In this document: positions 1 to 24,198 of the stretch, piece after piece
Numbering within the stretch: position 1 is the first letter of the stretch
Layout of the letters: the number at the start of each line of letters is the position of its first letter
IMG/VR virus record: IMGVR_UViG_3300046836_000342
Span: 1-30,622 of that record
Length of the DNA: 30,622 nucleotides
From: a virus
Direction: 5' to 3' (one strand)
The notes under the pieces: model-generated
The model's database searches: none
Seen by the model: only the letters and a program-made list of their open reading frames with translations
What the model was told of the DNA's origin: nothing
Translations under genes and position numbers: made by a program

Positions 1-226
1 TCTTGATCCCATTCCGCATCGCGTGCCGCTGGCGCTCGAATCTCTCGGGCGAGCCGACGTTGGGAGCGTAACTGTACACGCCGTCCGCCTCGACATGCGG
101 GGCCGAAATGAGCCGGCGTAAGGGTTTCCGGCAGGTCGAGCAGAACCGTTGACGGTCACGCTCCTCGATCTTGACCAACCGTTCGACCCGGTGGCCGTCT
201 GGGCATTCGAACTCAAGCAAAGGCAT
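1..226 (-). CDS. FmdB-like zinc-ribbon protein (partial, runs off left edge)
   Basis: An ATG start at 226 opens a frame that reads to the left edge without a stop, so only the first 75 residues are visible. The N-terminus MPLLEFECPDGHRVE followed by FCSTCRKPL matches the FmdB-type zinc ribbon, in which two cysteine knuckles bind one Zn. Such small proteins are common beside phage head genes, but their role is unknown. The start overlaps the end of the DUF115 gene by 14 nt, so it probably belongs to the same late operon. The family call rests on the N-terminal pattern only. Confidence 0.7.
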   Translation of the reverse strand, partial: MPLLEFECPDGHRVERLVKIEERDRQRFCSTCRKPLRRLISAPHVEADGVYSYAPNVGSPERFERQRHAMRNGIK

Positions 227-1454
227 CGACTTCCTCTGGAGTATCGGCTTCCGGGCCGAGGTTGATCGGAATGGCCTTCCCGTTGCTGTCCGATAACTGC
301 GGCAACCGCTCGAGGAAGGCTCTGTTTTTCGGCCGGATGGCTTTCACGTACGTATCGCCGACGATGTTGATCTGCGGGTACGTCCGCTCCATGACGAGCA
401 GCCAGCGGGCGCTAATCAAGAGGTCGATCTTGGATTCCCACCACCGGCCATGACCAGGGCGAATCGTGTCGTCCTCTGTCCCAGAATCGATCAACGCGCC
501 AAAGGTCAGTGCGGTCGAATTGGACGCCAGCGCGTGCCCGCCATCGGCATGCATGACCGTGTTCTCGCGCAGCCATTTATGGTGTGCCGCAGAGCCAAAA
601 ACGAGGCTGGACGGCATGGGCCCTTTGCTCCGCATCGCGCAGTCCGCACCCAGAACCGTGATCTTGTCGAAGCCCATGCACAAGGCGACGTCGATGGCTC
701 GGGTGACAGTATTTAAGCCTGACCCAGCTCTGACGGTCCCTGGGTAGAGGGTCATGTACATCCAGTCCTCGTACGGGAACTGTTGCACGACGCCGTTCGC
801 ATCGGGCCACGCCACTGGATTGCGTTTGATGCCGACAAAGTTGTGGAACCAGCGAATCCGGCGCTTGTTTGTGGTCAGGTACTGCGTGAGGTGGGGATGG
901 ACGGTTGTGGCGAGCATGTACTCGACGTCGGCCACGTCTTGCCACTCGACGAGCATGTCCGTGGTCTGATCGACCGTGAACCCGTGGGTCGGTTTGTATC
1001 CGTTGTCCACGAGCCACGGCAGGGCCGAATTGCACCCCCAGACTTCATCGCCTTGTGGCACCCATTCGGTCGCTTCTTCGGCCAGCGACGGGCCGGCACC
1101 GCAGATGACGACGTGCTTGCCCTTCCCACTGTCCACCTTGACGACAAACCGCTCATCGAGTTCGTCGATCGCCCGCCGGAACCGTTGCCAGGAGTCGAAC
1201 GCCGCTTGGTCGGTAAAGCTGGATTCGACGAGTGCCGCGAGTCCCCAGTACGGCTCTAACTCTTCGGCCACGGCGCGGTTCATATGCTGAAGGTGGTCGT
1301 GGGCCATTGCTTCCCAGGCAAAGGCATTGCCGATAATGAAGGCAGGGAAGTGGTCCGAGACCGGATTGGCGAGTGTGACCGTGGGTGACGGCGGCTTGCC
1401 GTTCTTGGCCGCCACGCGCTGAGCCTCACGACGGTCGCGACGGGCTTGGCTCAT
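213..1454 (-). CDS. DUF115/MptE-like (Maf-related) protein
   Basis: 413 aa. A central Rossmann-like segment contains HVVICGAGPSL (residues 114-124), a following WGCNSALPWL stretch, and TVLGADCA (266-273). This pattern is typical of the DUF115 / 6-hydroxymethylpterin diphosphokinase MptE-like domain. The same domain forms the core of Maf proteins, which attach pseudaminic or legionaminic acid to flagellin. Phage members of the superfamily also exist without a known role. The start overlaps the end of the head-morphogenesis gene by 4 nt (ATGA), so it should be expressed with the late structural genes. A glycosyltransferase role is inference, encouraged by the nonulosonate operon in the same phage at 6474-11257. 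A pterin or unrelated nucleotide-binding role cannot be excluded. Confidence 0.72.
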   Translation of the reverse strand: MSQARRDRREAQRVAAKNGKPPSPTVTLANPVSDHFPAFIIGNAFAWEAMAHDHLQHMNRAVAEELEPYWGLAALVESSFTDQAAFDSWQRFRRAIDELDERFVVKVDSGKGKHVVICGAGPSLAEEATEWVPQGDEVWGCNSALPWLVDNGYKPTHGFTVDQTTDMLVEWQDVADVEYMLATTVHPHLTQYLTTNKRRIRWFHNFVGIKRNPVAWPDANGVVQQFPYEDWMYMTLYPGTVRAGSGLNTVTRAIDVALCMGFDKITVLGADCAMRSKGPMPSSLVFGSAAHHKWLRENTVMHADGGHALASNSTALTFGALIDSGTEDDTIRPGHGRWWESKIDLLISARWLLVMERTYPQINIVGDTYVKAIRPKNRAFLERLPQLSDSNGKAIPINLGPEADTPEEVDAFA

Positions 1455-2341
1455 GCGACTGAGACGAGGCTAATGCAGCGGCAATTGTACGTGTCATCGC
1501 CGGGGATATAGTTGCCGTTCGAGTAGAGCGCATCATACGGCACGGTCTCGCCTTCCATCATCACATGCTCGTCCCGCTCGCGGTCATCCATGACGCCTTT
1601 CCACGTCTTGGTCAGTGAACCCTGTTCGACAATGCCCTGATTGATCGCGTCACGCCAGGCTAAATCCTGCCCAAGTTTCATGGCGTCAAGACTCGCCGTT
1701 CGGCTGATGGTCTCGGCATTCAGTGCCACGGCGCGGCGCGTGTATGCAGCAACGGATTTCTCGATGGCCGCGTCCCCAAAATCGGTTTCCGCCGCCAGCT
1801 TGGCTTCGTACTTGGCGACATTCGCCACTTGCGTTGGCGACAGGCCAACTATCTGCCGGATCTCTCGCGCAATCGTGGCCGCCGAGTCGCCATTGCGGAT
1901 CCCGTTCTCGATAAACGCCTTGACGGCTTCCCGGGTATCGTCGGCCAGTGATTGGACGACCTTGGTATCGAGCTCGCGGACGCCTTCGACGACATGGGGC
2001 GAGAGGTAGTTGAATGCGACACCAACCACGCCATTCACCTGACCCGCGTCCGGCAGGTCAAGAATGGCCGAGTCAAACGCCGCCGCGACGGCCTGTCTGA
2101 TGCGGACACTCAGCACCAGAAGGGCGCGGTCCACCAGCACCGCAAACGAGCCACCGACCGCGACATCAGCCACGAGTCGGTCGAGCGCATGGGACCGGAT
2201 GATGTCTTCGAGGTCCGTATCACTCAGGTTCTTCCGGATGGTATCAAAGGCGCGCAGCACGGCCGCACTCAACGCCGGCTGCAATCGTGCGGCTCGGCGT
2301 CGGGCGCGTTGCCATGCCTCGAGTTCAACCGCTGAGAGCAT
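1451..2341 (-). CDS. Phage head morphogenesis protein (SPP1 gp7 / Mu gpF type)
   Basis: 296 aa from ATG 2341. An in-frame TTG at 2374 would add 11 residues but overlap the upstream gene by 50 nt instead of 17. The C-terminus carries the minor-head-protein signature: KTWKGVMDDRERDEHVMMEGE, with the first residues forming the usual W-x-D-x-R-x-x-H pattern, then PGDDTYNCRC near the end. These proteins associate with the portal and are ejected or act in head assembly. The N-terminal half is mostly helical. The gene lies downstream of the portal as expected and is coupled by ATGA to the DUF115 gene. Confidence 0.85.
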   Translation of the reverse strand: MLSAVELEAWQRARRRAARLQPALSAAVLRAFDTIRKNLSDTDLEDIIRSHALDRLVADVAVGGSFAVLVDRALLVLSVRIRQAVAAAFDSAILDLPDAGQVNGVVGVAFNYLSPHVVEGVRELDTKVVQSLADDTREAVKAFIENGIRNGDSAATIAREIRQIVGLSPTQVANVAKYEAKLAAETDFGDAAIEKSVAAYTRRAVALNAETISRTASLDAMKLGQDLAWRDAINQGIVEQGSLTKTWKGVMDDRERDEHVMMEGETVPYDALYSNGNYIPGDDTYNCRCISLVSVA

Positions 2342-2555
2342 CGCCGTTCGTCGGGGAGACAAACTTCCGCTCAACTACCGTCGCATCGAGAGACCAATCG
2401 ACGTACTGCTCGATGGTCGCCTCGACCAGACTGTCGTTGCTGATCTTGACCGCGATGCTGATAACGCCCTTCATTGGCGCGCCATCCAGCAGCACCTTCG
2501 TATTGCCCGGATCTCCGTCGGGGCAACTAACCTGAAGCCGATGGAGGTCTGGCAT
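2325..2555 (-). CDS. Small conserved-type phage protein of the head module
   Basis: 76 aa, not assigned to a named family. It begins MPDLHRLQVSCPDGDPG and continues VLLDGAPMKGVISIAVKI, a beta-rich pattern seen in small proteins near phage portal and head genes. There is no membrane segment. The ATG at 2555 shares its A with the stop of the upstream 63-aa frame (TGATG), and the end overlaps the head-morphogenesis gene. A structural accessory role is a guess from position. Confidence 0.65.
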   Translation of the reverse strand: MPDLHRLQVSCPDGDPGNTKVLLDGAPMKGVISIAVKISNDSLVEATIEQYVDWSLDATVVERKFVSPTNGDALSG

Positions 2556-2746: not shown

Positions 2747-2960
2747 TCTCGTCTCCTTGGTCAAACGTGGTGTCCGATTCCTTTCGTACACGCGTGCCGA
2801 TGTAGTGATAGTCCCCGTTGTCCCACGAACTGACATAGCGGGCAATGCCGTTCCCGAACTGGACATCCAGCGCATCGTATCCTTTGCTCATTTTGGGGGC
2901 GCGGTTCCCGTCCATCGGCCCGCCAACGAACTCCGGATACTCATGCGGGACGTGTGTCAT
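2727..2960 (-). CDS. Small phage protein with FVGGPMDG motif
   Basis: 77 aa. It starts MTHVPHEYPEFVGGPMDGNRAPKM and contains an aromatic-rich tail (WDNGDYHYIGTRVRK). The FVGGPxDG opening recurs in small uncharacterised proteins of many actinophage and proteobacterial phage genomes. Its function is unknown. It overlaps the portal gene stop by 4 nt (ATGA), so it is translationally coupled to the packaging genes. Confidence 0.7.
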   Translation of the reverse strand: MTHVPHEYPEFVGGPMDGNRAPKMSKGYDALDVQFGNGIARYVSSWDNGDYHYIGTRVRKESDTTFDQGDENGDATD

Positions 2961-4546
2961 GCGACAGTTGGCTGCGGCGCCGGCGTGGGTGGTCGCTGCC
3001 GGAGTGCCAACTGTGCCGCCATCTCGTCCGCTTTCTGTGCCGCATCCGCCGCCTTCGCCGCGTCCATCTCTTGGACCAGTTCGTCGATATTCTCGTCCGG
3101 ACTCAACCGTTGCCCATCCTGTAACGCTTCAAGTACCACACGAGCCGGGAGGTTCAACGCGGTCGCCAGTGTTCCCCACGCCGTCATCATGTCAGCCTGC
3201 ATCGACATGTCGTCAAACTCGCGGTTGATCTCGATAGACCCGCCATCGGGCAATCGGAGATAGTTCGCATGAAACTGCATGGCCTTCTCAACGGCGTCCT
3301 GTAGTCCGCGAGCCGTGACCGCCAGCTTCGAGTCCGATGCGCTTTTGTCGATCCGCTTGGCTTGAGCTGTCTCGGCCGTTCGCTTCTGCGGGGCGAGCAT
3401 CGAGAGGCCAAGGACGCCCATGTCTGACTTCATGTCGTCCAGCGAGACCTTCACCTCGTTGAGTGCTTGGCCGGTATGTGACACGTACTTGGCGTCCGCG
3501 CCTAACGGGAGCCAGAGTACGGTGTCAGGTCCTACCACGACCGGTTCCTTGCCACCCGCCGAATTGGATGCGCCGATAATGGCAAGGACCGGGACACACG
3601 TTTTGTGGATCGAGGTCGCCTGGTCACTGGACCGCTGATAGAACGCGATGTTGAGATAGGCCAGGTCGATGAGCGGCGGGTCGGAATCGAACAACGCCCG
3701 ACGCCCGGAGCTCTGCACTTCCGCCAACGGGATCTCGGTCTGGTTTACATACCGGCCTTCGTCGACCAGGACAACTGTCTGCGTGTCGGTAACCTCAAGC
3801 AGCGTAAAGCCAACCATCCCGTTCTCGTTCCACAACACCCGGTAGCGCGTCTGCGTCTTTTCACCAAAGGCGCCATCGGGAACCGAGGTCGTCTCCTTGA
3901 GCACGATCTGGGTGAGAATGAGCCGTCCCCCAACCGTCTGCGTTCGCCAACTGACGATGTTGTCCTTTTTGATGAGCACCCAGTACGGCCGCATCGCCGC
4001 TGGGCCTGTTTCATCAGCAAGCGTCAGGATGCGGCCACCCGTATTCGGATAGTCCACGAGAATCGCACAGTGGCCCGTCTCGATGGCTTCCTGTAGCGCC
4101 TCGTGAATGAACACGTCGCCATGCGTGCCGGCGTTGTCGATATTCTCCCACTGGTCACGGATGGGTTGCGGGACATCGTCACCGAACTCCGGGTCTCGGC
4201 GAAAGACGTAGCCGGTCAGCCCTTCGACAGCACTCCGGAAGGCGTTGAAGAAAACGGTTGAGCGGAGGCGAGCCTGGTAGTTCTGCGGCTCCTCACCTGG
4301 CGCTTGCGGGAGGTACGTGTTCTGCCGAGCTCGTACGCTTTCAGTCCCGCCCCACACGTCGCGACAGATGGTTAACGCGTTCTGCTGCTTCTCAGCGGCC
4401 GGTGAGAGCGTACTGGGGAGGTTTCGCTTCTCGCCAGGAAAACCGGCAATCTGGACACCACCCGGGCGTAACGGACCGTCACCGGGTCGGTTGCCGACAT
4501 TGGCGGGGTCCGTATCAGGGACGTAGGGCAGTTGATAGGTCGCCAT
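2957..4546 (-). CDS. Portal protein (DUF4055 family)
   Basis: 529 aa, usual for the family. Portal proteins form the dodecameric ring at the head vertex through which DNA is packaged and ejected. DUF4055-like features are CRDVWGGTESVRARQNTYLP near residue 60, then LTGYVFRRDPEF and a central beta-rich region. The C-terminal end is helical and coiled-coil-like with an Ala/Gln/Pro-rich tail. The ATG at 4546 is preceded by GAGG about 7 nt upstream. It follows the large terminase gene directly, the canonical terS-terL-portal-head order. Confidence 0.88.
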   Translation of the reverse strand: MATYQLPYVPDTDPANVGNRPGDGPLRPGGVQIAGFPGEKRNLPSTLSPAAEKQQNALTICRDVWGGTESVRARQNTYLPQAPGEEPQNYQARLRSTVFFNAFRSAVEGLTGYVFRRDPEFGDDVPQPIRDQWENIDNAGTHGDVFIHEALQEAIETGHCAILVDYPNTGGRILTLADETGPAAMRPYWVLIKKDNIVSWRTQTVGGRLILTQIVLKETTSVPDGAFGEKTQTRYRVLWNENGMVGFTLLEVTDTQTVVLVDEGRYVNQTEIPLAEVQSSGRRALFDSDPPLIDLAYLNIAFYQRSSDQATSIHKTCVPVLAIIGASNSAGGKEPVVVGPDTVLWLPLGADAKYVSHTGQALNEVKVSLDDMKSDMGVLGLSMLAPQKRTAETAQAKRIDKSASDSKLAVTARGLQDAVEKAMQFHANYLRLPDGGSIEINREFDDMSMQADMMTAWGTLATALNLPARVVLEALQDGQRLSPDENIDELVQEMDAAKAADAAQKADEMAAQLALRQRPPTPAPQPTVA

Positions 4547-4547
4547 G

Positions 4548-5801
4548 CTACATCCTCAGTGTGGAGAAAGTGGCGGCCCTCGTGTGCAGGAGGTTAAACC
4601 GTTGCCAGATGAGATACCCCAACGCATCAGTGATGTGGTCGAGCCCTAAACTCTTGTCCGGCAGGCTCGTTCCGTCCTTGTACGTCATGCCATCCAACCC
4701 ACGAATAAGCGCCTTGGCGTTCGGGTGAACGTGCAGCCGACGCTTGCCGTTCGCGTCCTTCAACATCGTCTGAACAGCATTGATCCGGTCAGGAATCGGG
4801 ATTGCGGACGGATGGACATCCACAATCAATCCATGACTCTGCAAGATTGTGATGTCCGTTGTCCCAGCCACCGCACTCGTCCGCCGCTGGTTCGCTGATG
4901 GGTCAGGGCAGACAATGATCGGACGACCCTTGTAGCGTCTCACGATTTCGGCGGCCACCTCTTCCGTGTTCGAGGTGTGGAGCTCAAGGGCTTCAAGGAC
5001 GTGGCATTCGTCGCCAACCTTTATGGCAACGACGGTCGCCATCGGATTGATGTTGAAATCCTGGCCGACCAGAATCTCACCACCAACGTCCTTGATGTCC
5101 TTGGAGACGTTGAGCAGACGGTCGAAGTTGTCATAGACCCGCCCCGCTAGTGTCTCAAAACTCGCCTCGAACTCCTGGCGAAAGACGCGCGAATCCATGC
5201 TTGATCGTGCCGCCTCAATCTCGTCAGGCGGGACGTTCCCACCTTTCAGCGTCGTGAAACTCCACGACTTCCACTCTTTGTCATCAACCACGCCCTTCAA
5301 GTACAGGTCGTAGGCGTAGTTGTAGCCCATCGGCGTCCCGACAAAGAGAGCTCGCCCCTGCCGATCGGCCAACGCTGGCCTGAGCACTTCCTGCCAGAGC
5401 GTCGGGTCGATCATCGCGAACTCGTCACAGACGACAAAATTGAGGCCGAGGCCGCGGAGGCTGTCCGGGTTATCGGCACCCTTCAATGCGATGCGCGAGC
5501 CATTGCGGAGTTCGAGGCTGAGTTCTGTCTCGTTCGGCGCTTTGGCTAGTTGGCTTCGAGGTACCACCTGCTTCACGGCACGCCACGCGATTTCCTTGGC
5601 CATGCGGTAGGTCGGGGCGACATACCAACAGACCGCGTTCCTCTTCTCGCCGGCCGCTGCTGCGAGTTCTGCCGCGGCGAGGTACGTCTTGCCGAACCGC
5701 CTTCCAGCAACGAGGACGCGAAACCGGTGGTCCGACTCAAAGACATCGGCCTGGGGATCGGTGAACTCGATCCATTTGACGGGCCGAGTCGCAGCAGTCA
5801 T
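4548..5801 (-). CDS. terL: Terminase large subunit
   Basis: 417 aa; ATPase and nuclease that pumps phage DNA into the prohead. The Walker A-type loop is GRRFGKT (residues 33-39) and Walker B is VVCDE (123-127) with the catalytic Glu at 127. The coupling-motif region FVGTPMG is at 153-159. The C-terminal RNase H-like nuclease shows VGQDFNI with D248 and a late acidic pair in LDHITDAL (D388, D392). The length and order fit the Terminase_6-type family. It lies 2 nt after the small-subunit gene. Confidence 0.95.
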   Translation of the reverse strand: MTAATRPVKWIEFTDPQADVFESDHRFRVLVAGRRFGKTYLAAAELAAAAGEKRNAVCWYVAPTYRMAKEIAWRAVKQVVPRSQLAKAPNETELSLELRNGSRIALKGADNPDSLRGLGLNFVVCDEFAMIDPTLWQEVLRPALADRQGRALFVGTPMGYNYAYDLYLKGVVDDKEWKSWSFTTLKGGNVPPDEIEAARSSMDSRVFRQEFEASFETLAGRVYDNFDRLLNVSKDIKDVGGEILVGQDFNINPMATVVAIKVGDECHVLEALELHTSNTEEVAAEIVRRYKGRPIIVCPDPSANQRRTSAVAGTTDITILQSHGLIVDVHPSAIPIPDRINAVQTMLKDANGKRRLHVHPNAKALIRGLDGMTYKDGTSLPDKSLGLDHITDALGYLIWQRFNLLHTRAATFSTLRM

Positions 5802-5803
5802 GG

Positions 5804-6172
5804 CTAGTTGGCTGACCGACGACGGAAGGCTAGCATGTCGATCTCGCCAGAGTGCTCGACGCGTTCGGTATAGAGACCAGCCGCCTTGCCGCGGGAGATG
5901 GCGGCCGTAACGGCTGGTCCGTACTGGCCGGCTTCAATGGCTCCGTCGCGCAGGTCGGCGAGTTCTTTCAGGTGAGTCGCGAGAGTGATTCCCGCTTCCT
6001 CGATAATCGGTGCGCGAAGGTTAGCAATTTCTGTTGCGATACTAGCATTCCCTAGCAATCGCGTTGCTTGAACGCTCGCGCCATTCGGGCTAAAGCCAGC
6101 CCTGATAGCGGCTTGCGTCGCGTTGCCGTCTTTAACGTATTCGACGACGAATCGTTGCTGGCGTTCTGTCAT
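5804..6172 (-). CDS. terS: Terminase small subunit
   Basis: 122 aa. The N-terminal helix-turn-helix has the Terminase_2 pattern: MTERQQRFVVEYVKDGNATQ followed by AAIRAGFSPNGA and a short helix ending LLGNASIATEI. It recognises the packaging site and recruits the large subunit. The ATG overlaps the stop of the 53-aa zinc-ribbon gene by 4 nt, and terL follows. Confidence 0.92.
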   Translation of the reverse strand: MTERQQRFVVEYVKDGNATQAAIRAGFSPNGASVQATRLLGNASIATEIANLRAPIIEEAGITLATHLKELADLRDGAIEAGQYGPAVTAAISRGKAAGLYTERVEHSGEIDMLAFRRRSAN

Positions 6173-6330
6173 GCCCAGGTCATCTCCACCTTGCTTTTAC
6201 AGCGAGGACAGTGGGTTGCGAGTCCCTGACCGTTCCGCTCGCCATCGGTTCGGAGGATACGGACGGTCACTTGGACCTCGCCGGGAATGGCCAAGAGCCA
6301 AGTGCGGCAAGGAAACTCAGTACGCGCCAT
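6169..6330 (-). CDS. Small zinc-knuckle protein upstream of terS
   Basis: 53 aa. It ends CPRCKSKVEMTWA and has another Cys in FPCRTW, suggesting one zinc ribbon or a half-ribbon. The frame is open further upstream to 6477, but a terminator-like hairpin at 6360-6400 lies in that extension, so the ATG at 6330 is preferred even though no clear ribosome site precedes it. It is coupled to terS by ATGA. The function is unknown; Com-like translational regulators of phages look superficially similar. Confidence 0.55.
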   Translation of the reverse strand: MARTEFPCRTWLLAIPGEVQVTVRILRTDGERNGQGLATHCPRCKSKVEMTWA

Positions 6331-6359
6331 GCGGATGCGGCCGGGGCAGCGAACATCGG

Positions 6360-6400
6360 TATAGACAAAGGCCCCCGTGACCGTGAGAGTCGCGAGGGCC
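6360..6400 (-). terminator. Rho-independent-type terminator after the sugar operon
   Basis: On the minus strand GGCCCTCG pairs with CGGGGGCC (one T-G wobble). An inner GAC/GTC pair extends the stem, and a 7-nt loop closes it. TTTGTCTAT follows. It lies between the stop of the last sugar-operon gene (6474) and the start of the packaging genes (6330), so it would separate the two transcription units. The T-run is short and no folding was computed. Confidence 0.6.
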
Positions 6401-6473
6401 GTGAAACGACCGTGAGGATGTGGGTCGGCGGGTTGGGCCGATAGGGAGAATATGGGGGCGGCACGAGGATTGG
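6401..6473. other. Short non-coding gap between sugar and packaging modules
   Basis: Together with the hairpin, the gap from 6331 to 6473 (143 nt) contains no gene I can support. A TATACC box near 6353-6358 on the minus strand, just downstream of the hairpin, could be part of a packaging promoter, but no matching -35 is visible. Confidence 0.4.
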
Positions 6474-6707
6474 TCAACGAGGGGATTCCGGTATTTGAGT
6501 CAGAACAACCTCAGACCACCGATAGCCAAAGACGAACGAGACGATGACTAGTGCAACACTCAGACTGATCCCGACGGCAGGACTGAAGCGCAGCCATATC
6601 CCGATCGCCGTATCCTTTTGCGACGGCTCTCGGTACCTGAAGTAACACCAGTGGCCCCACGGCAGGCGCGCGAAATATGCTGGCTTGCCTTCCCATGTGC
6701 CCTTCAA
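6474..6707 (-). CDS. Small single-span membrane protein, last gene of sugar operon
   Basis: 77 aa. The N-terminal half is aromatic-rich (FARLPWGHWCYFRYREP). It is followed by one predicted transmembrane helix around residues 47-65 (VGISLSVALVIVSFVFGY) and a short polar tail. No family is recognised. Its ATG overlaps the stop of the aminotransferase gene by 4 nt, so it is the eighth and last member of the operon, just before the terminator. A role in anchoring or exporting the sugar product is possible but unsupported. Confidence 0.65.
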   Translation of the reverse strand: MKGTWEGKPAYFARLPWGHWCYFRYREPSQKDTAIGIWLRFSPAVGISLSVALVIVSFVFGYRWSEVVLTQIPESPR

Positions 6708-7738
6708 CTCAGTTCCTCAATGGCGCGTTTGAGGGCTTTGGCGTTCTTCTCGGCTGAGGCGATGCTATTCGTCTGAAACTGGAGGAGTCGCGGCTGGAGC
6801 GATTCGGCAACAGGACAGAGTTTGTACTGTTTGAAGAGTGGCTGAAACGCGGGTTCGTCATACGTGAGTCGCCATGCCGGATAGGGCTGTTCGCCGCCCT
6901 GCCTCACGATCGCATCACTGAGCCGAAGCGCGACGCCCGGAGTGTCGCACACGACGGCGTAGGTCCAGTAGTCGTGGGTCCAACCGTCGGGGACGTGTTG
7001 AGGGACGAGCCAGTCGCAGCCGGCAATGGCTTCACGGTAGAGTTGCGCGGCTTCGCGACGCAGGCGCACTAATTCATCGGGCCATGATCGAGTCCAGCCC
7101 ACACCGCCGACAGCCATGTTGAATAGGTCAAGTCCAGCCGCCGCCGTAATATCGTTCATGCGGTAGTTCCAGCCGAGCGAGTGGTGACGCTCAAAGGTTG
7201 GGCTTTTGATGGCGTCGGGGTCGATGCGGGGTTGGTCAGCTCGCATCCGATACCCGAGGCTCGAGAACTCCCGCGCTTTCGTGGCTAGTTCCTCATCGTT
7301 CGTGACGAGCACGCCGCCTTCGCCGAGTGCGAGAATCTTGGAAGCTTGGAAACTGTAACTGGTGAACTCGGCAAGGATGTTATGCGGCCGCAACGTCTGG
7401 GCCGCGTCGTCTATCGCGCGTCCCGAGAATCCAGACTGGGCGTGCAGACCATAGAGCGATACAGGAATCGTCGGTATCGAATAGCCAGCGCCGCCCATCA
7501 GCCACGTCCGTTCGTCCACATCGCAGAACGCCGGAACCGCCCCAGCATGCAGAACCGCAATCGTGGTCGATGCCATCGTGAGCGGTGGGACGGCTACGCG
7601 GTCTCCCGGCTTCACACCAAGCGCCACAAGAGCCGTATGCAAAGTTGCGGTCCCATTCACTAGCGCGATTGCGTACTTTGCGCCGACATAGGCGGCGAAC
7701 TCGCGCTCGAATGCAGCGACCGCAGAGCCGTTCTTCAT
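6704..7738 (-). CDS. pseC: PLP-dependent sugar aminotransferase (DegT/DnrJ/EryC1/StrS; PseC-like)
   Basis: 344 aa from ATG 7738, which overlaps the previous stop by 4 nt; upstream in-frame codons are rejected for that reason. Fold-type I aminotransferase. NGTATLHTALVALG (28-41) is the PLP-phosphate region, DDAAQ (110-114) gives the Asp that holds the pyridine nitrogen, and SFQASKILALGEGG (129-142) carries the Schiff-base Lys at 134. In the pseudaminic pathway PseC transfers an amino group to C4 of the 4-keto UDP-sugar made by PseB. Substrate and stereochemistry are inferred from the neighbouring pseB-, neuB- and spsF-like genes. Confidence 0.88.
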   Translation of the reverse strand: MKNGSAVAAFEREFAAYVGAKYAIALVNGTATLHTALVALGVKPGDRVAVPPLTMASTTIAVLHAGAVPAFCDVDERTWLMGGAGYSIPTIPVSLYGLHAQSGFSGRAIDDAAQTLRPHNILAEFTSYSFQASKILALGEGGVLVTNDEELATKAREFSSLGYRMRADQPRIDPDAIKSPTFERHHSLGWNYRMNDITAAAGLDLFNMAVGGVGWTRSWPDELVRLRREAAQLYREAIAGCDWLVPQHVPDGWTHDYWTYAVVCDTPGVALRLSDAIVRQGGEQPYPAWRLTYDEPAFQPLFKQYKLCPVAESLQPRLLQFQTNSIASAEKNAKALKRAIEELS

Positions 7739-7932
7739 CCAAGCACCCGCACCCATTCTTCGCCGTACAACTCGACCGCGTACGCACGCGGCCATGCGAG
7801 GATTGTGAAGCAATCATGCGGCGGGACGATCTCCCTCAAAAAACCGTGACAGTGGCACCGGTCGCCGGGGATGGCGAGAAGGCTAAACAGTCGCGCCTTG
7901 AGGGGACTCATGATCTTCTTCTGCTCTGTCAA
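7735..7932 (-). CDS. Small unknown protein inside the sugar operon
   Basis: 65 aa with ATGA overlaps at both ends, strongly suggesting it is translated. The central part contains GDRCHCHGFLREIVPPHDCF, with three Cys and three His that could bind a metal. The C-terminal part is hydrophobic/aromatic (ILAWPRAYAVELYGEEW). No family is recognised. Being between the cytidylyltransferase and the aminotransferase suggests a small accessory or regulator of the pathway, but this is only positional. Confidence 0.65.
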   Translation of the reverse strand: MTEQKKIMSPLKARLFSLLAIPGDRCHCHGFLREIVPPHDCFTILAWPRAYAVELYGEEWVRVLG

Positions 7933-8510
7933 TTCCCCTCCACGAGTAGTCTCGCCGCCCGAAAATCTGCCTGATCGTCGATGGTCCAGTAGCCTTTCGG
8001 CAATCGCGGCACTTTCGGCGCGTCATGTGCACCAAAGAGTGCATACGTGATGTGCTCTCGCTTGTACTTGTCCTGGGTGACCGAGTTCGCCACATCCAAC
8101 ATCTCGAGTGTGAACGCTTCGCCGCCTTGCTCCACCGGCAAGCGTTCACCAGCGACAACGCGCAGACACATCGTCGGCTGTTTGTTCCAATCGTCTGGCG
8201 TCCAACGGACAATCACGGTGTCGGGATGCCAGCGGTACCGATGCGCGCAGAACCAGAAGCGACCGAGAACGTCATGCTCATCGCCATCCCATGCGAATAC
8301 TGTCGCCTTGACCCGCCGCAATTCAGCACCAAGCGGACCAGCATCGTCCTTTGCGGGAATCGCCACCACGACATTTGCCTGACCGAACGCTTCCACCGCC
8401 AACCGCCACGCCCGCGCAATCAACGTCTCGCCGCCAAGTTTGAGAAGCATCTTCTCCTCAAGCCGCGTGCTCTTGAGTCGTGACTGGATGATGCAGAGCG
8501 GCGGAATCAC
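7929..8510 (-). CDS. spsF: CMP-sugar cytidylyltransferase, SpsF type
   Basis: 193 aa from GTG 8510, which forms a GTGA overlap with the previous stop; the frame is open further upstream but only within the preceding gene. The nucleotide-binding signature IIQSRLKSTRLEEKMLLKL (7-25) matches the I-x-(A/S)-R-x-x-S-x-R-L-x-x-K loop of SpsF and related nucleotidyltransferases. FAWDGDEHDVLGRF and the acidic DDW region follow. The family activates 8- or 9-carbon acid sugars as CMP derivatives (PseF/SpsF role). It is shorter than the usual ~230-240 aa, so the C-terminal part is reduced. Confidence 0.82.
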   Translation of the reverse strand: MIPPLCIIQSRLKSTRLEEKMLLKLGGETLIARAWRLAVEAFGQANVVVAIPAKDDAGPLGAELRRVKATVFAWDGDEHDVLGRFWFCAHRYRWHPDTVIVRWTPDDWNKQPTMCLRVVAGERLPVEQGGEAFTLEMLDVANSVTQDKYKREHITYALFGAHDAPKVPRLPKGYWTIDDQADFRAARLLVEGN

Positions 8511-8857
8511 TGGACCGGCACCCCGAACCGCTCCGTCAGATGCAAGTACCGATGGATCTCCATCATCCCGTTCTGCTTCATCAGGTACACCCGCTGCCCG
8601 AATCGGTCCACGTCTTTGCACCACAAACAGTTGTCCCACATGGAATTTGACGGGTCTCGGACATAGGCCGCGCACCAATCGACAGCGAGATGTAAGCCCT
8701 CATCACTATCCGGTACCTGGCCCGCATGCGTGAGTAGGACAGGACTGAGTAAGTACGGCTCAATCTGTGGTGTGTACATGAACAACTCGCCGAGATACCA
8801 GATCTGCGACGTGTTGAACAGAATCGGGCGAGACGTCACGAGTTCGGCGAGCGTCAT
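8507..8857 (-). CDS. Unknown protein in sugar operon
   Basis: 116 aa, coupled by 4-nt overlaps to the DUF218 gene before it and the cytidylyltransferase gene after it. It is rich in aromatic residues (SQIWYLGELFMYTP), has a CLWCKDVDRFG segment and ends HRYLHLTERFGVPVQ. There is no membrane helix and no recognisable acetyltransferase or hydrolase motif. Its position makes it a candidate for one of the pathway steps not otherwise seen (acetyl transfer or UDP release), but nothing in the sequence proves this. Confidence 0.7.
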   Translation of the reverse strand: MTLAELVTSRPILFNTSQIWYLGELFMYTPQIEPYLLSPVLLTHAGQVPDSDEGLHLAVDWCAAYVRDPSNSMWDNCLWCKDVDRFGQRVYLMKQNGMMEIHRYLHLTERFGVPVQ

Positions 8858-9456
8858 ACGACCGGCGCCGGCTGATGTTTTGACAGATACAAAATCCCGT
8901 CCTCGTAACTCGCCACATGGCTAATGGCCTGGTAGAGCGTGATCTTGCTTCGCTCATGCGTTAAGAGTTCGCGACGCGTGGAATCCATCCCCGCTGGCTT
9001 TTCCTCCCACGATGCGGAATGGGCAGGGACAGGGATAATGCGGATTCGCTCTGCGGCCGGCTCCTCGATCAATGCTTGGACAAACGTCAGAAAGGCGCGC
9101 GGTAGGTGATAGGCCGATGCAACGAGAATCAGCTTGGACCATCCGCGATCTAGCGCGAGGTCGATCATGTTGACGGCCTGCTCACGCGTGTTCCTCGAGC
9201 CGCCCTCCATCATCATCTTGTCAGGACTGATGCCGTAGGGCGAGCCGAGTAGGGCGCGATACGAGTGCATGGCGTCGATGAATTGCGGCGGCTCGTGCAG
9301 CCCACCCGAGAGCACAACGAGTGGCGCGAGCCCCATGCGAAAGGCGTGGTAAGCCGTCCGGTATCGGGGCTCGGCATCCTCGCCACACAGGCAGACGATA
9401 GCGTCCGATTTCGCGGGCGGTGTCGTGAACAACATGGCGAGGAAATCGGGGTTCAT
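8854..9456 (-). CDS. DUF218 / YdcF-SanA-ElyC family protein
   Basis: 200 aa. DAIVCLCGEDAEPRY (18-32), LVVLSGG (46-52), GGSRNTREQA (85-94) and LILVASAYHLPRA (109-121) are the characteristic DUF218 blocks. Bacterial members (SanA, ElyC, YdcF) act at the cell envelope or in glycan metabolism, but their chemistry is poorly known. No signal peptide is seen, so it should be cytoplasmic. It sits between the NeuB-like gene and an unknown gene with 4-nt overlaps on both sides, tying it to nonulosonate synthesis. Confidence 0.85.
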   Translation of the reverse strand: MNPDFLAMLFTTPPAKSDAIVCLCGEDAEPRYRTAYHAFRMGLAPLVVLSGGLHEPPQFIDAMHSYRALLGSPYGISPDKMMMEGGSRNTREQAVNMIDLALDRGWSKLILVASAYHLPRAFLTFVQALIEEPAAERIRIIPVPAHSASWEEKPAGMDSTRRELLTHERSKITLYQAISHVASYEDGILYLSKHQPAPVV

Positions 9457-10226
9457 GCCAGCATCGCCTCAACATCACGAACGCGGCGGATCATCTCCCC
9501 AAATTGGACGTCAGTAAGACTCACATTGCTTTCAAGTTCCGATGGCTCGTCCCAGAGCATGAAATGCGCTTCAAGAACTACTGCGCCGCGCGAGGCCGCG
9601 ACAATGCAGGGCTCGATACTCGTCCCGTGGTACGAGAAGCCATCATAATTATTTTCCGTGTCGACGCGGGATAGCTCGAGCGCCGTCTGTGGGTACCCCG
9701 GAGCGCACCAGAGCCACAGACATTCACCATTCTCGTCCAGATTATACCAGCCCTGCGCCGTGCTGATGATCTTCGGCTTGCCCGCGAGCCGCGTCCGCAC
9801 GAGGTCCATGAAGGGGCTATAAGCGTCACTATCAAGCGCCGCGATTTTCCAGACCGGATTGCCGATTGATTCCAACAGATCCATTGACTCAGGGCCGAAC
9901 ACCGATGAGAAAATCGGGAGGCCAATGGACGCCGCATGAGCATAGAGCGGCGCGAACCATTCGCGGGGCGTCATTGCGCGCGTGTAGAGATCACGCATCG
10001 ACATGCCCTGATCGCCCCATCGTGCTGGCGCTGGCCCATCACCGCCGCGCAGAGCCAGCAACTCCTCGACGCCATAGCATTGTAGCTTTGCCGCAGATGC
10101 ACCTGACGCCTTTGCGGCATCAAGTAATCGGACAGCTCGGCCGTAGTCCCCATTGTGCGCGTTTCCAATCTCGGCAATGCACGCGACAGGACATCCGTGG
10201 CCAATCTCGAGAGGGCCGATGTTCAT
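9453..10226 (-). CDS. pseI: NeuB/PseI/SpsE-family nonulosonic acid synthase (short form)
   Basis: 257 aa from ATG 10226 (ATGA overlap with pseB). TIM-barrel synthase that condenses phosphoenolpyruvate with a 6-carbon amino sugar. IAEIGNAHNGD (17-27) is the signature opening; AAKLQCYG (45-52), KIISTAQG (152-159), CAPGYPQ (174-180) and LEAHFML (218-224) align with the barrel strands. Two oddities stand out. The C-terminal SAF/antifreeze-like domain of the usual ~340-aa enzymes is absent, and the usual G-(Y/L)-S-D-H-T motif reads GFSYHGT (196-202). The fold assignment is firm; product identity (pseudaminic, legionaminic or other) is not determined. Confidence 0.87.
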   Translation of the reverse strand: MNIGPLEIGHGCPVACIAEIGNAHNGDYGRAVRLLDAAKASGASAAKLQCYGVEELLALRGGDGPAPARWGDQGMSMRDLYTRAMTPREWFAPLYAHAASIGLPIFSSVFGPESMDLLESIGNPVWKIAALDSDAYSPFMDLVRTRLAGKPKIISTAQGWYNLDENGECLWLWCAPGYPQTALELSRVDTENNYDGFSYHGTSIEPCIVAASRGAVVLEAHFMLWDEPSELESNVSLTDVQFGEMIRRVRDVEAMLA

Positions 10227-11257
10227 GCGACCAGCTCGCGCAACTCGTCGACACTGAGCTGCATTGGGTTCGTATCCGAACGATATGAGAAGTCGGCCGG
10301 CACGGATGGATAACACGGCATGGACGGCGGAGATTCCCACCACGGTCTGGTGCCATTCGCGGTATTCGGCAACCGCCACGTCGCGGATTCGGGCTCGATG
10401 ATGTAGTGCGTCCCGGCGTCGTATGTCGTCCGAGATTCCTCACTCGAGATTAGCGTTTCGTGCATCCGCTCACCCGGCCCTAATCCCGTTTCGACATGGC
10501 CGGGTTCGTACAACCCAGGGCCGACGACGGCGCGGGCAAGATCGAGAACGATGGCACTGCCGACCTTGGGGATGAAGACTTCGCCGCCTTTCATCTCGCG
10601 GAAGGCCAAGAGGACGAGATCGACCGCCTGATCAATCGTCATCCAGAACCGCGTTGCATTCTCGCAACTGATGGTCAGCGGTAAGTTGCGGTCTCGCTGG
10701 CCCTTGAAGATGCCAAGCACCGACCCGCGCGAGCCGAGAACATTGCCATATCTCGTCGCGGACAACTTTGTCGCATGGCCCGCTGCGTACACGTTTGAGG
10801 CAATCCACAGCCGCTCGGCCGTGAACTTGGTCGCACCGTAAAGCGTATGGGCGGCCGGCGCTTTATCAGTCGAGAGAAAGACGGCCTTGTGGACACCGGC
10901 GAGGATTGCAGCACTCGCGACATGGTGCGTCCCAATCACATTTGTGAGGGTCGCCTCCCACGGGTCGGCCTCACAGGCTTCAACCCGCTTCATCGCCGCG
11001 GCATGAACGACCAGGTGGACGCCGTTCATGGCTTGCACGAGTCGGTCTCGGTCCCGAACATCCCCAATGAACCATCGGACGCGGGAATCCGGAAACTCGG
11101 CCTTCATCTGGGATTGCTTGAGCTCATCGCGGGAAAAGACGACGAGACGGCCGACGTCATCGGCTAAGGCTCGACGGACGAAGGCATGGCCAAAACTTCC
11201 CGTGGCCCCGGTACAGAGCACGGAACGACCAGTCAGCGGGCTATCCACGTAGGGCAA
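10223..11257 (-). CDS. pseB: UDP-GlcNAc 4,6-dehydratase, PseB/CapD type
   Basis: 344 aa, SDR-family NAD(P)-dependent dehydratase that opens the pathway by converting UDP-GlcNAc to a 4-keto-6-deoxy sugar. The dinucleotide loop is TGATGSFG (16-23). FSRDELKQ (41-48), GDVRDRDRL, HAAAMKRVEACE (85-96) and STDKA (129-133) are classic for PseB. The YxxxK pair is Y140/K144 in LYGATK. It starts at TTG 11257, supported by GGAGAG about 9-11 nt upstream; there is no better start. First gene of an eight-gene chain in which every junction overlaps by 4 nt. A candidate promoter and operator lie just upstream. Confidence 0.9.
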   Translation of the reverse strand: MPYVDSPLTGRSVLCTGATGSFGHAFVRRALADDVGRLVVFSRDELKQSQMKAEFPDSRVRWFIGDVRDRDRLVQAMNGVHLVVHAAAMKRVEACEADPWEATLTNVIGTHHVASAAILAGVHKAVFLSTDKAPAAHTLYGATKFTAERLWIASNVYAAGHATKLSATRYGNVLGSRGSVLGIFKGQRDRNLPLTISCENATRFWMTIDQAVDLVLLAFREMKGGEVFIPKVGSAIVLDLARAVVGPGLYEPGHVETGLGPGERMHETLISSEESRTTYDAGTHYIIEPESATWRLPNTANGTRPWWESPPSMPCYPSVPADFSYRSDTNPMQLSVDELRELVA

Positions 11258-11344: not shown

Positions 11345-11824
11345 CTAATGTGCGAATGTGCCGCGTGAAACCTCGACGAGGAGCACTCGGAGCGCGTCCA
11401 AGGTTGCCTGTGTCGTCAGCCCATCGGGCGTCGTGCGATACAGCCGCCAGCCCAATTGATTCGCGCGATTGTACTTCTCCATGTCCGCGGCGTATCCCGA
11501 ACCGCGCGTGTGTCGACCGCGCGTCCAGATACCGCCCTCCACCTCGATTGCGATCTTTTGTTCCGGAAACGCAAAGTCGAATGCCCACTTGCGAGGACGG
11601 GCAAAGCGAAACTCGGGAATCGGGCGTGGAAGGCCCACAGCGGCCAGGACGGCCAGAAACAGCGCAGTCGTCGCGTCCTGGGGTTTAGTGAGCTTGGCGG
11701 GGCGCTTCCGGGGCGGGGACGGGGATTGTGGCGCGCCATGCTGGGCCTGAGCCTTGCTTCGTGGCACGCCGAGCCGAACGAGCGCTTCTACCGTCTCGTC
11801 CGGTGTCATGCCGAAGTCGGTCAC
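11345..11824 (-). CDS. PD-(D/E)XK endonuclease-like protein
   Basis: 159 aa. The core is KWAFDFAFPEQKIAIEVEGG (79-98): D83, then E94 and E96 in the I-E-V-E strand, with a following W/G/H-rich segment (GIWTRGRH) and DMEKYNRANQLGWRLYR (114-130). This is the pattern of small phage nucleases related to very-short-patch-repair/DUF559 enzymes and Holliday-junction-type resolvases. The canonical Lys of E-x-K is replaced, as often in this subgroup. The start is GTG 11824 (an ATG lies 5 codons in); neither has a good ribosome site. It is the last gene of the early/replication operon. Confidence 0.75.
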   Translation of the reverse strand: MTDFGMTPDETVEALVRLGVPRSKAQAQHGAPQSPSPPRKRPAKLTKPQDATTALFLAVLAAVGLPRPIPEFRFARPRKWAFDFAFPEQKIAIEVEGGIWTRGRHTRGSGYAADMEKYNRANQLGWRLYRTTPDGLTTQATLDALRVLLVEVSRGTFAH

Positions 11825-12001: not shown

Positions 12002-12308
12002 GTCCTCCCAGCCGCGATGCACGGGCGTTATCATGCCGCCCTGCGTGTCGCGAAGGTTCCTGGCTCGGCGTGCGAGCCTTCGCGAACTTTTCGAGCCGTT
12101 CGAGGCGACGCTCGACGTCGGCCGCCGTAATCTCTTTCGTGTCCGTCACGATCCACGCGATGAACGCGGCGACGAAGCAAGCGTAGAGCGTTCCCGCGAC
12201 GCCATAGAGCCATCCGGGCGCGTGGAAGTGATCCAGCGCCAGCCACCAGACGAGCGCCATGTTCAGATACAAACTCGGCCGTGGGGCGCCGCGCTGGGGT
12301 CGCGGCAT
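11955..12308 (-). CDS. Small membrane protein with two predicted spans
   Basis: 117 aa from ATG 12308, which shares one base with the helicase stop (TGATG). Two hydrophobic stretches follow a basic start: about residues 17-26 (ALVWWLALDH, short) and 32-54 (LYGVAGTLYACFVAAFIAWIV). Then comes a charged helix with VERRLERLEKFAKA. The last ~20 residues are Arg-rich and overlap the next gene, so the true C-terminus may be shorter if there is a sequence error. An Arg-rich upstream extension of the frame lies antisense/out of register with the helicase and is rejected. Confidence 0.6.
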   Translation of the reverse strand: MPRPQRGAPRPSLYLNMALVWWLALDHFHAPGWLYGVAGTLYACFVAAFIAWIVTDTKEITAADVERRLERLEKFAKARTPSQEPSRHAGRHDNARASRLGGHELSRRRGVRWLHRA

Positions 12309-13363
12309 CAGAATTCCCTCCCGACGTCGCGGCCCTGTGTTGAGTATTGGTCGACCTCGCGCAGGTCGAGGACACGCTGGTGGCGTACGAAGAGCTTGGC
12401 GACCTGACCGGCCACCGGGCCCTCGAGGCGATGCTTGAGCACCATGACGGCCATCGTGCTCGGCTCGACGACGGTGTCGCGGAGCGCGAGGCCCTGCCGG
12501 ACGAGCTTGAGCTGCTTGTCGCTGATGTTCGACTTGAGCGGCCGATAGACGCCGAGCACCGTGTCCGACTCCTCCTCCTTCGTGCCGCCGCCGCGGAGCG
12601 CGTGGAGACTCGGTGGCATGAACTGCTCGGCGGCGTCGGCGGGTCGGCCCATCTGCGACGCGACGAGCATGACGATGTGATTCTGGACTGCCAACTCTTT
12701 CGCGAGGCGCACCGTCTCGCTCATCTCGTGGAATGAGTTCTTCCCGTCGCCGTGCGCGATGCGATCGACGTGGTCGACGATCACGAACTGGCAACCGAGC
12801 GCGACACCCCAGTCGGTCCAACGCTTGAGACCCGCAGCGTTGATCCGGCGCGTAGTGGCGAAGTGCGCGCGCTCACGGACCCACGGATCCCGCTGCCAGA
12901 CGAGGTGCCGCTGTACTTTGCTCATCGCATCGTCCCAAGTCGGCGTGCCGCGCGCATCGCCAGCGGCCAAGACGACCTTCGGCGGGATGTCCATCGCCAT
13001 GCAGGCCCATTTGACGCGCAGGACGTCGGGCCCCTGCTCGAGGCCGATGTACAAGCCGCAGTGGTCTGACCGGATCAGCGAGTCGAAGAGGTTTTGGAGA
13101 AACAGCGACTTGCCGCCGCCGGTCCGCGCGGCGACGAGGATCAAATCGCCGGGGCACATCGGCCCGGCGAGTGAGGCAAGATCCCGCCAGGGGTAGCGAG
13201 GGAATGTTGACGAGTCCTCGTGAATCCGCGCCGTCGCGTCCGCGAGTTGCGAGTCGATGAGCGTATCCGGGTCGGGCATTTCGGCGACGGCGCGACGTTC
13301 GCGCTCGTCGTCGAGACTGAGCACGGGCCCGACGCGGTCGTAGCGATTCAGCGGCGCGCTCAT
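12308..13363 (-). CDS. DnaB-like replicative helicase (RecA-fold ATPase)
   Basis: 351 aa. The Walker A is AARTGGGKS (78-86), an EQG segment (GLEQG, 107-111) fits helicase motif 1a, and the Walker B is FVIVDHVDR (193-201). The conserved ASQMGRPA follows, as in DnaB/gp41-type helicases. The N-terminal DnaB domain is replaced by a short ~60-residue leader, so this is a RecA-core helicase of the phage type. It unwinds the phage fork and is coupled by ATGA to the initiator gene, the lambda O/P-like arrangement. Confidence 0.85.
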   Translation of the reverse strand: MSAPLNRYDRVGPVLSLDDERERRAVAEMPDPDTLIDSQLADATARIHEDSSTFPRYPWRDLASLAGPMCPGDLILVAARTGGGKSLFLQNLFDSLIRSDHCGLYIGLEQGPDVLRVKWACMAMDIPPKVVLAAGDARGTPTWDDAMSKVQRHLVWQRDPWVRERAHFATTRRINAAGLKRWTDWGVALGCQFVIVDHVDRIAHGDGKNSFHEMSETVRLAKELAVQNHIVMLVASQMGRPADAAEQFMPPSLHALRGGGTKEEESDTVLGVYRPLKSNISDKQLKLVRQGLALRDTVVEPSTMAVMVLKHRLEGPVAGQVAKLFVRHQRVLDLREVDQYSTQGRDVGREF

Positions 13364-14315: not shown

Positions 14316-14539
14316 TTCGCGACTCCGGCGCCGACATCAGCAGACCGGTGGACCGGGCTTTCGGCCTGTATCCCTGGCTGTAACGCCCGCGCGGATTTCT
14401 CACTCGAGGCGGGAAAGAGCCGGTTACTAGCCCGTGCGCTAAACGCCCATCTGTGCGCGACTTCTATAGTATGGGCGCGGGACGACGTTGGCCGTCCCTG
14501 TTCCGCCACAAAACCTAATAAGCTACGGTTTCGCGTCAT
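14312..14539 (-). CDS. Possible small protein, overlapping the candidate att region
   Basis: 75 aa. It fits the 4-nt overlap pattern at both ends (ATGA with the integrase stop, GTGA with the next gene), which favours translation. The sequence has no recognisable pattern and an unremarkable, Ser/Ala/Arg-rich composition. The same DNA carries a repeat pair and hairpins that suggest an attachment site, so the frame may be incidental. Confidence 0.35.
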   Translation of the reverse strand: MTRNRSLLGFVAEQGRPTSSRAHTIEVAHRWAFSARASNRLFPASSEKSARALQPGIQAESPVHRSADVGAGVAK

Positions 14540-14570
14540 TCGCTATTTCCTGTATCGCTGGCTGTAACGC
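14365..14570. repeat. 22-bp direct repeat pair beside integrase (candidate attP arms)
   Basis: Bases 14365-14386 and 14549-14570 match at 21 of 22 positions (core GGCTGTAACGC shared). The right copy covers the last codons of the integrase gene. Between them lie inverted repeats CGCCCAT/ATGGGCG (14444-14450 and 14471-14477) and GGGACG/CGTCCC (14479-14484 and 14493-14498). Repeats next to int are typical of attP arm or core sites; the crossover point is not identified. Confidence 0.5.
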
Positions 14571-15225
14571 TGAACGCGCTGGCGAGCTTGGCGACCGCGG
14601 CGCGCTTGTGATCAGGACTGAGGTCCGCGTACACATCCTCGACGACCTTGAGCGAGTCGCCCAATAGCTTCGCGACGGTATACAGGTCGACGCCGCGCAT
14701 GACGGCGTGCGATGCGAACGAATGCCGGAGCGTGTGGTAGACGACGCCCTGCGGATTCTCCCGCCCGTAGATCAAGCCGGCGCCTTCAACGATCTGGATG
14801 AAGTGCTTGCGGAAGGCCAGCTCCTGGAGCGGCTCGCCGTCGTAGACGGGGCTCGGAAACATCCACGTTTCAGAGGCGAAGTCGCGGACGTGCACGCGCG
14901 CGATAGCTCGCAACGGCTCGGCCATCGGAACGAGGCGAATCGCGCGCTTTGTCTTCGGCCGCCAATCCGGCTGCTTCCGGATGTTGATCACGCCGAGCTC
15001 CAGGTCGACGTCGAGCACGGGACGAAGGCGGAGCGTTTCCCCAATGCGTAACCCGGCGAGCAGCCCGCACGCGACGCCGAACAGGTACGGCGCCGGCGTG
15101 CGCGCCATCACGGCGTTCGCCTCTGAGACGGTCAGCACGCGATCTCGGCGATGGGTCTCCCGCACCGTACGATCGGCCTCCACGGGGCTGTGGAGCGGCC
15201 TGGCGGGGCGGTTCCGTTCGCTCAT
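14536..15225 (-). CDS. int: Tyrosine recombinase/integrase, catalytic domain only
   Basis: 229 aa. The catalytic residues visible are R60 (LLAGLRIGE), K91 or K93 (RPKTKR), H164 and R167 (HTLRHSF) and the nucleophile Y199 (VEDVYADLSPDH). The usual LGH/W position reads LGD (D190), so one catalytic residue is altered. Family integrases have 300-400 aa with an N-terminal arm and a core-binding SAM-like domain. Here only about 30 residues precede the catalytic fold, and the ATG at 15225 overlaps the upstream stop by ATGA, so no hidden N-terminus is available. It may work with a reduced domain set, need a partner, or be defective. Confidence 0.85.
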   Translation of the reverse strand: MSERNRPARPLHSPVEADRTVRETHRRDRVLTVSEANAVMARTPAPYLFGVACGLLAGLRIGETLRLRPVLDVDLELGVINIRKQPDWRPKTKRAIRLVPMAEPLRAIARVHVRDFASETWMFPSPVYDGEPLQELAFRKHFIQIVEGAGLIYGRENPQGVVYHTLRHSFASHAVMRGVDLYTVAKLLGDSLKVVEDVYADLSPDHKRAAVAKLASAFSVTASDTGNSE

Positions 15226-23883: not shown

Positions 23884-24198
23884 CTAATGCTTGTGCAAGA
23901 GGATTTCGAGCGCGGCGATCGCAAGCCCGATTAGGACCGCGACCGCGCCGCGCCATCCATCCGGCGCGACGCCCATCCAATAGGGCGCGAGCATGAAGTG
24001 GACGGTGAGCCAGCACCACAGCGGCCAGAGGATGAACCGGCCGAGCAGGTCGAAGCGAATCGCGCGCGCCTGATAACTCAGCGTCCATTCGGTGTGCCCG
24101 GTGCCGAGCGCCCAGCCCTCGAACACGAGGAGCGCGAACATGAGATACATCCACGCGAGACCGGGATTGAACTTGGGCAGAGTGCTCGCGCCGGTCAT
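23884..24198 (-). CDS. Membrane protein, holin candidate
   Basis: 104 aa with three hydrophobic stretches: around 14-30 (AWMYLMFALLVFEGWAL), 50-70 (LGRFILWPLWCWLTVHFML) and 83-101 (GAVAVLIGLAIAALEILL). The size, the three spans and the ATGA coupling directly after the endolysin gene make it a holin candidate. The family was not recognised. Confidence 0.6.
   Translation of the reverse strand: MTGASTLPKFNPGLAWMYLMFALLVFEGWALGTGHTEWTLSYQARAIRFDLLGRFILWPLWCWLTVHFMLAPYWMGVAPDGWRGAVAVLIGLAIAALEILLHKH

Follow-up and report, generated by a model that had tools for sequence, protein, structure and literature searches.

Maf proteins transfer nonulosonic acids (NulOs) to Ser/Thr, and pfam01973, the domain at their centre, is similar to the sialyltransferase Cst-II (PMC11339370). 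The same domain family contains MptE (8sd5), an archaeal 6-hydroxymethylpterin pyrophosphokinase. The sialyltransferases of GT42 (CstI/CstII) and GT29 all use CMP-sialic acid. Pse/Leg pathways, such as those encoded by Campylobacter pse and Bacillus sps, comprise PseB-, aminotransferase-, NeuB- and cytidylyltransferase-type genes. Few systems are known in which proteins of the phage particle are glycosylated, and to our knowledge none of them uses nonulosonic acids that the phage makes.

The DNA analysed here (the window) is the 30,622-base IMG/VR virus record IMGVR_UViG_3300046836_000342, which is linear and probably incomplete. A gene for a stand-alone PF01973 protein, a sugar cassette and head genes are all located on its minus strand (Table 1). 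Each of these parts is known on its own; for their combination into a conserved PF01973-cassette unit within a phage head operon, as shared by this uncultured lineage, no report was found in the literature searched, a scope outside which most subscription papers lay. The unit suggests that uncultured tailed phages with most of a sialic-acid-like pathway, and with an enzyme resembling in shape those that attach such sugars to proteins, may sugar-coat a protein of their own. This lineage-wide, syntenic pathway-plus-transferase unit shows clearly which genes to express and what to expect in mass spectrometry, its minimal single-domain Maf relative should help in learning what sets Maf acceptor choice, and its cassette is a candidate for an unusual NulO pathway that includes two uncharacterised proteins.

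Table 1. Coordinates of the PF01973 gene, the head genes and the sugar cassette in the window.
Feature	Position	Strand	Evidence and remarks
MptE-like (PF01973/DUF115) protein, proposed CMP-sugar (NulO-type) glycosyltransferase	213..1454	-	413 aa; PF01973; fold
MuF-like minor head protein	1451..2374	-	PF04233 E=8e-10; PHROG head morphogenesis
Portal protein (DUF4055)	2957..4546	-	PF13264 E=1e-35; phrog_145 portal
Terminase large subunit (TerL)	4548..5801	-	PF03237/PF17289
Terminase small subunit (TerS)	5804..6172	-	phrog_51 E=2e-24
DegT-type aminotransferase (PseC/LegC-like)	6704..7813	-	PF01041 E=6e-50; TIGR04181/PseC partial scores; homology begins near 7738
CTP_transf_3 cytidylyltransferase (KdsB/SpsF/NeuA-like)	7929..8678	-	PF02348 E=9e-9; true start probably near 8510
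Orphan protein of ~120 aa (sm116), cassette member	8507..8857	-	Conserved in every full cassette
DUF218 (YdcF-like) protein	8854..9456	-	PF02698 E=6e-17; weak YdcF match
NeuB/PseI-like synthase	9453..10379	-	PF03102 E=2e-25; probable start 10226 (ATGA overlap with PseB)
PseB-like UDP-GlcNAc 4,6-dehydratase	10223..11257	-	PF02719 E=3e-80; TIGR03589

The PF01973 Gene and Its Predicted Fold

The first-pass annotation had described an ORF at 213-1454 as a Maf-related DUF115 gene in a head module. The coordinates proved exact, the coding strand being the minus strand, with an ATG start at 1454 and a product of 413 aa. In a Pfam scan of this protein PF01973 (MptE-like/DUF115, the Maf core) was the sole family listed; it covers residues 109-275 (E=1e-13), and the score of 51.9 bits against a curated cut-off of 34.6 places the protein in the superfamily. 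The head-module placement was borne out by the MuF gene (PF04233), whose stop lies inside the start of the PF01973 gene (ATGA overlap), and by the portal (DUF4055), TerL and TerS genes upstream. The 1454..213 reading frame is not due to chance, since about 25 homologues at 41-60% identity share about 60 invariant positions. These homologues are 345-413 aa long, and their invariant motifs include GAGPxL (GxGP), DxVWGCNS (WGCN), THxFTxDQ, GAD and MHxxG (MH). By analogy with CstII, His302 is suggested as the putative general base.

A search of the PDB by sequence with the PF01973 protein gave chance matches only, and the GxGPSL...CN stretch resembles Cst-I at the motif level only (E=1.5, not significant). 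An AlphaFold2 model was obtained from 14 aligned homologues (pLDDT 78, pTM 0.80), and on it the comparison with Maf and MptE proposed in the first-pass annotation was carried out. By VIA-align the predicted fold was closest to the central domain of Maf 5mu5 (Z 15.8, rmsd 3.3 over 215 residues, Maf 244-498), followed by archaeal MptE 8sd5 (Z 12.9), the GT29 human sialyltransferases (Z 9.8-8.2) and CstII of GT42 (Z 7.7); Foldseek was concordant (Maf, E=4e-8). The phage protein shares with Maf (5mu5 of Magnetospirillum; CbMaf) the central PF01973 fold and the association with NulO genes, but it is 14% identical, is encoded among head and not flagellar genes, and in its 413 aa does not have the three-domain Maf architecture, the N-terminal degenerate Rossmann and C-terminal helical domains being absent. 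Its likeness to GT42 CstI/CstII and GT29 extends to the fold (Z 7-10) and the GxGPSL...CN motif, whereas the identity is remote (~10-16%) and the acceptors of those enzymes are glycans. Distant PF01973 proteins occur in other uncultured phages: the MptE-like proteins of uncultured Caudovirales in BFVD are phage-encoded and have the same fold, but are ~14% identical.

The Pfam family name and the MptE match, within one domain family, would also fit an MptE-type pterin or nucleotide pyrophosphokinase with a role in folate-like or DNA-modification chemistry unrelated to sugars. We consider this very improbable: Maf outscores MptE over more residues, the phage gene has a sugar-gene and not a pterin-gene context, the family matches included no pterin or deazaguanine genes, and the sugar cassette is found in every relative that spans both loci. 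It appears likely that the PF01973 protein works as a CMP-sugar transferase in association with the cassette.

The Sugar Cassette

The sugar genes occupy positions 6704-11257, and the dehydratase, aminotransferase, synthase and CMP-transferase genes of the Pse/Leg pathway are all present. The NCBIfam equivalog cut-offs were not reached by the cassette proteins, as exemplified by the PseB-like protein (337 bits with TIGR03589, cut-off 408). The catalytic cores of the PseB-, DegT- and NeuB-like proteins are conserved: invariant were the STDK/Y..K residues in the first, the PLP Lys159 in the second, and Glu17, Lys45, Lys124, His189 and His210 (L014 numbering) in the third, which we take to be the metal and substrate residues of the TIM barrel. 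The NeuB-like protein is nearest to the pseudaminic acid synthase PseI 8h2c (E=7e-43), with an alignment that ends at residue 271 of 349, and a search for a SAF domain on it found none. The closest PDB relative of the cytidylyltransferase is the cytidylyltransferase 6oew.

Every full cassette also has two further conserved proteins, the DUF218 protein and the orphan. The orphan family has invariant W, QRxY and ExHR residues; the orphan had no Pfam match, and its model no fold match in the PDB. A PseG hydrolase was sought in 11 fragmentary records and found in none (0/11), and a PF13302 acetyltransferase was absent from the records of the PF01973-carrying lineage. The cassette therefore departs from the Pse/Leg pathways in these two absences, in a NeuB-like protein devoid of SAF and in the addition of the DUF218 and orphan proteins, which may fill the pathway gaps. 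The presence of a complete NulO pathway is not supported, as neither PseG, a PF13302 acetyltransferase nor SAF was found; the earlier claim that the phage makes a nonulosonic acid is therefore an inference, and the sugar formed may differ from a standard NulO. An ORF at 11345-11824 of the window, immediately upstream of the sugar genes, resembles by eye a Vsr/PD-(D/E)XK-type endonuclease but had no Pfam match.

Relatives and Co-Occurrence of the Two Loci

Viral contigs were scanned in three ways, with the PF01973 gene, the NeuB-like gene and the portal, and cassette and head genes were located on the records of the relatives by tblastn. A scan with the single PF01973 sequence recovered only the near-identical contig L001. 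The first divergent homologue, L014, was reached through TerL, and scans with L014 added gave 24 further contigs, plus one that had been binned with a Gemmatimonadetes genome. No relatives were found in 50,697 INPHARED phage records (tblastn with three family members, nothing significant).

Eleven divergent records extend over both loci, from the DegT side to PF01973 (the window, L014, L033, L040, L041, L047, L048, L049, L059, L060 and L084). Every one of them carries the PF01973 gene, at 43-60% identity, together with the NulO-type cassette, and they share one gene order in which the two loci flank the head genes. The six-gene cassette is complete in nine of them; in L040 and L059 the contig end truncates it. 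In the independent NeuB-like scan (19 records) the PF01973 gene was present in 8/9 of those reaching past MuF; the one record without it, L081, belongs to a different phage, and its cassette has another composition. The L081 cassette, at 2760-8279 between TerL and portal, comprises genes for an acetyltransferase (PF13302), PseB, a NeuB-like protein, a GFO/IDH-like protein, an SpsF-like protein and a class III aminotransferase.

The portal scan gave 79 loci, 27 with a portal of at least 46% identity and 52 with one of 42% or less. Among the former, an MptE HMM match was obtained in 16 and cassette genes in 15. The records lacking the PF01973 gene numbered 11, of which nine stop before its site (L003, L015, L072, L078, L094, L095 and L098-L100); in L096 and L102 MuF is absent too, which contig ends do not explain. 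Phages with the more distant portals were without both PF01973 gene and cassette: the family HMM found the gene in none of the 52, and 20 whole records were without any PF01973. Since all the spanning records carry both loci and the distant-portal phages neither, the Maf/NulO link is well supported, and relatives of the gene in phages without sugar genes, which would have spoken against it, were not seen among the close relatives. The co-occurrence listed as a check in the first-pass annotation held in every spanning record, but within one lineage and not over many independent events; the strict pairing is retention, not repeated independent association. Mantel correlations between gene distances were weak, and co-evolution is not used as support.

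Restriction of both loci to one portal clade, in which all clade genes "co-occur", is also what would be expected of a structural or assembly protein that marks the lineage and has lost catalysis while retaining the fold, its linkage to sugar genes reflecting only shared ancestry. About 60 residues are nevertheless invariant, including the GxGP, WGCN, THxFTxDQ, GAD and MH motifs, the PF01973-cassette pairing is maintained across exchange of the terminase (TerL identity as low as 23%), and one phage has a PF01973 paralogue, so that we rate a purely structural role as improbable. In L072 and L079 TerL is placed differently relative to the cassette, and the pairing is kept.

Among bacterial bins a relative occurs in just one, that of Gemmatimonadetes, which is incomplete and of uncertain host, and assignment of a Gemmatimonadetes host from this single bin was rejected as too weak. 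A different, canonical NeuB operon lies beside or shortly after the portal in L009, L104, L105 and L107, related phages without PF01973; it contains NeuB, methyltransferase and NeuA-like genes, to which L105 adds aminotransferase, GmhA-like and SDR genes. NulO-type genes thus recur in head modules.

Head Module and Probable Acceptor

The order of transcription in the window is PseB-like, NeuB-like, DUF218, orphan, cytidylyltransferase, DegT, TerS, TerL, portal, MuF and PF01973 gene. In the relatives it runs portal-MuF-MptE-scaffold-P22-like coat, the coat having been assigned by eye from sequence and position. Contig L001 continues for 970 bases beyond the end of the window. There, in the window's own phage, the PF01973 gene is followed by two ORFs, one zinc-ribbon and one lipoprotein-like, and neither scaffold nor coat is seen within this stretch. 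A Com-like zinc finger suspected by eye at ORF 6169-6477 was discarded, as it had no Pfam support. In L046, APS-kinase-like and nucleotidyltransferase-like ORFs (by eye) lie at 7845-8661 between the PF01973 and scaffold genes, and a second, divergent PF01973 copy is found after the coat gene in the phage of L084 (L158:5445-6452).

The place of the gene between MuF and scaffold/P22-like coat in the relatives points to late expression alongside virion proteins. The reading that we favour by a modest leaning is that of a stand-alone Maf/MptE/GT42-like transferase closing a phage-borne sugar pathway, with a virion protein as the likeliest acceptor. The PseB-like, DegT, NeuB-like and CTP-transferase proteins would synthesise, in the cytoplasm, a NulO-type sugar activated with CMP, with the missing steps supplied by the DUF218 and ~120-aa orphan proteins or by host enzymes. 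As the last step, the PF01973 protein would move this sugar onto its acceptor, most probably Ser/Thr of a protein that this operon also encodes (coat, a head protein of the scaffold stage or another virion protein), and the outcome would be a sugar-decorated virion. A cytoplasmic protein acceptor is favoured because no flippase or polymerase was seen in the cassette, and for a virion protein in particular we put the chances at even or marginally better. The fuller proposal, that the phage decorates its own virion proteins with an unusual sialic-acid-like sugar by means of its own NulO-type pathway and a head-operon single-domain Maf-like transferase, is tentative and falls somewhat short of an even chance.

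The main rival acceptor is a surface glycan. The cassette-sugar transferase could act on LPS, capsule or S-layer glycan intermediates of the host, a late change that would keep new progeny from adsorbing to lysed debris or shut out rival phages. Its fold relatives CstI/CstII and GT29 act on glycans and not on proteins, phages often alter surface glycans, and in bacteria the ElyC/SanA type of DUF218 protein is linked to the envelope. Against a surface role stand the cassette devoid of flippase and polymerase, the location of the PF01973 gene between MuF and scaffold/coat, when surface-conversion genes are usually found elsewhere than among head genes, and the nearest structure, Maf, which modifies protein. 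We regard this alternative as rather unlikely. Host flagellin, the acceptor of true Mafs, is suggested by Maf being the closest structure, and its glycosylation would alter motility or a flagellar receptor; only Maf 244-498 was aligned, however, the Maf N- and C-terminal domains being missing, late expression before lysis would presumably bring little gain, and no flagellin match was obtained in the sole bin with a relative, weak evidence given its incompleteness and uncertain host. Flagellin is accordingly a most unlikely acceptor. A virion protein is thus favoured over a surface glycan, with flagellin and pterin chemistry ranked as unlikely.

Other Genes of the Window

A DnaB-like helicase gene at 12308-13363 of the window is 89% identical to L021:3696-4748, from a phage that lacks both the cassette and the PF01973 gene, which indicates strong mosaicism. 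An integrase (PF00589) is encoded at 14536-15225, so the phage may be temperate. At 24195-24893 a Rv2525c-like glycoside-hydrolase-like domain was found, which is a possible endolysin.
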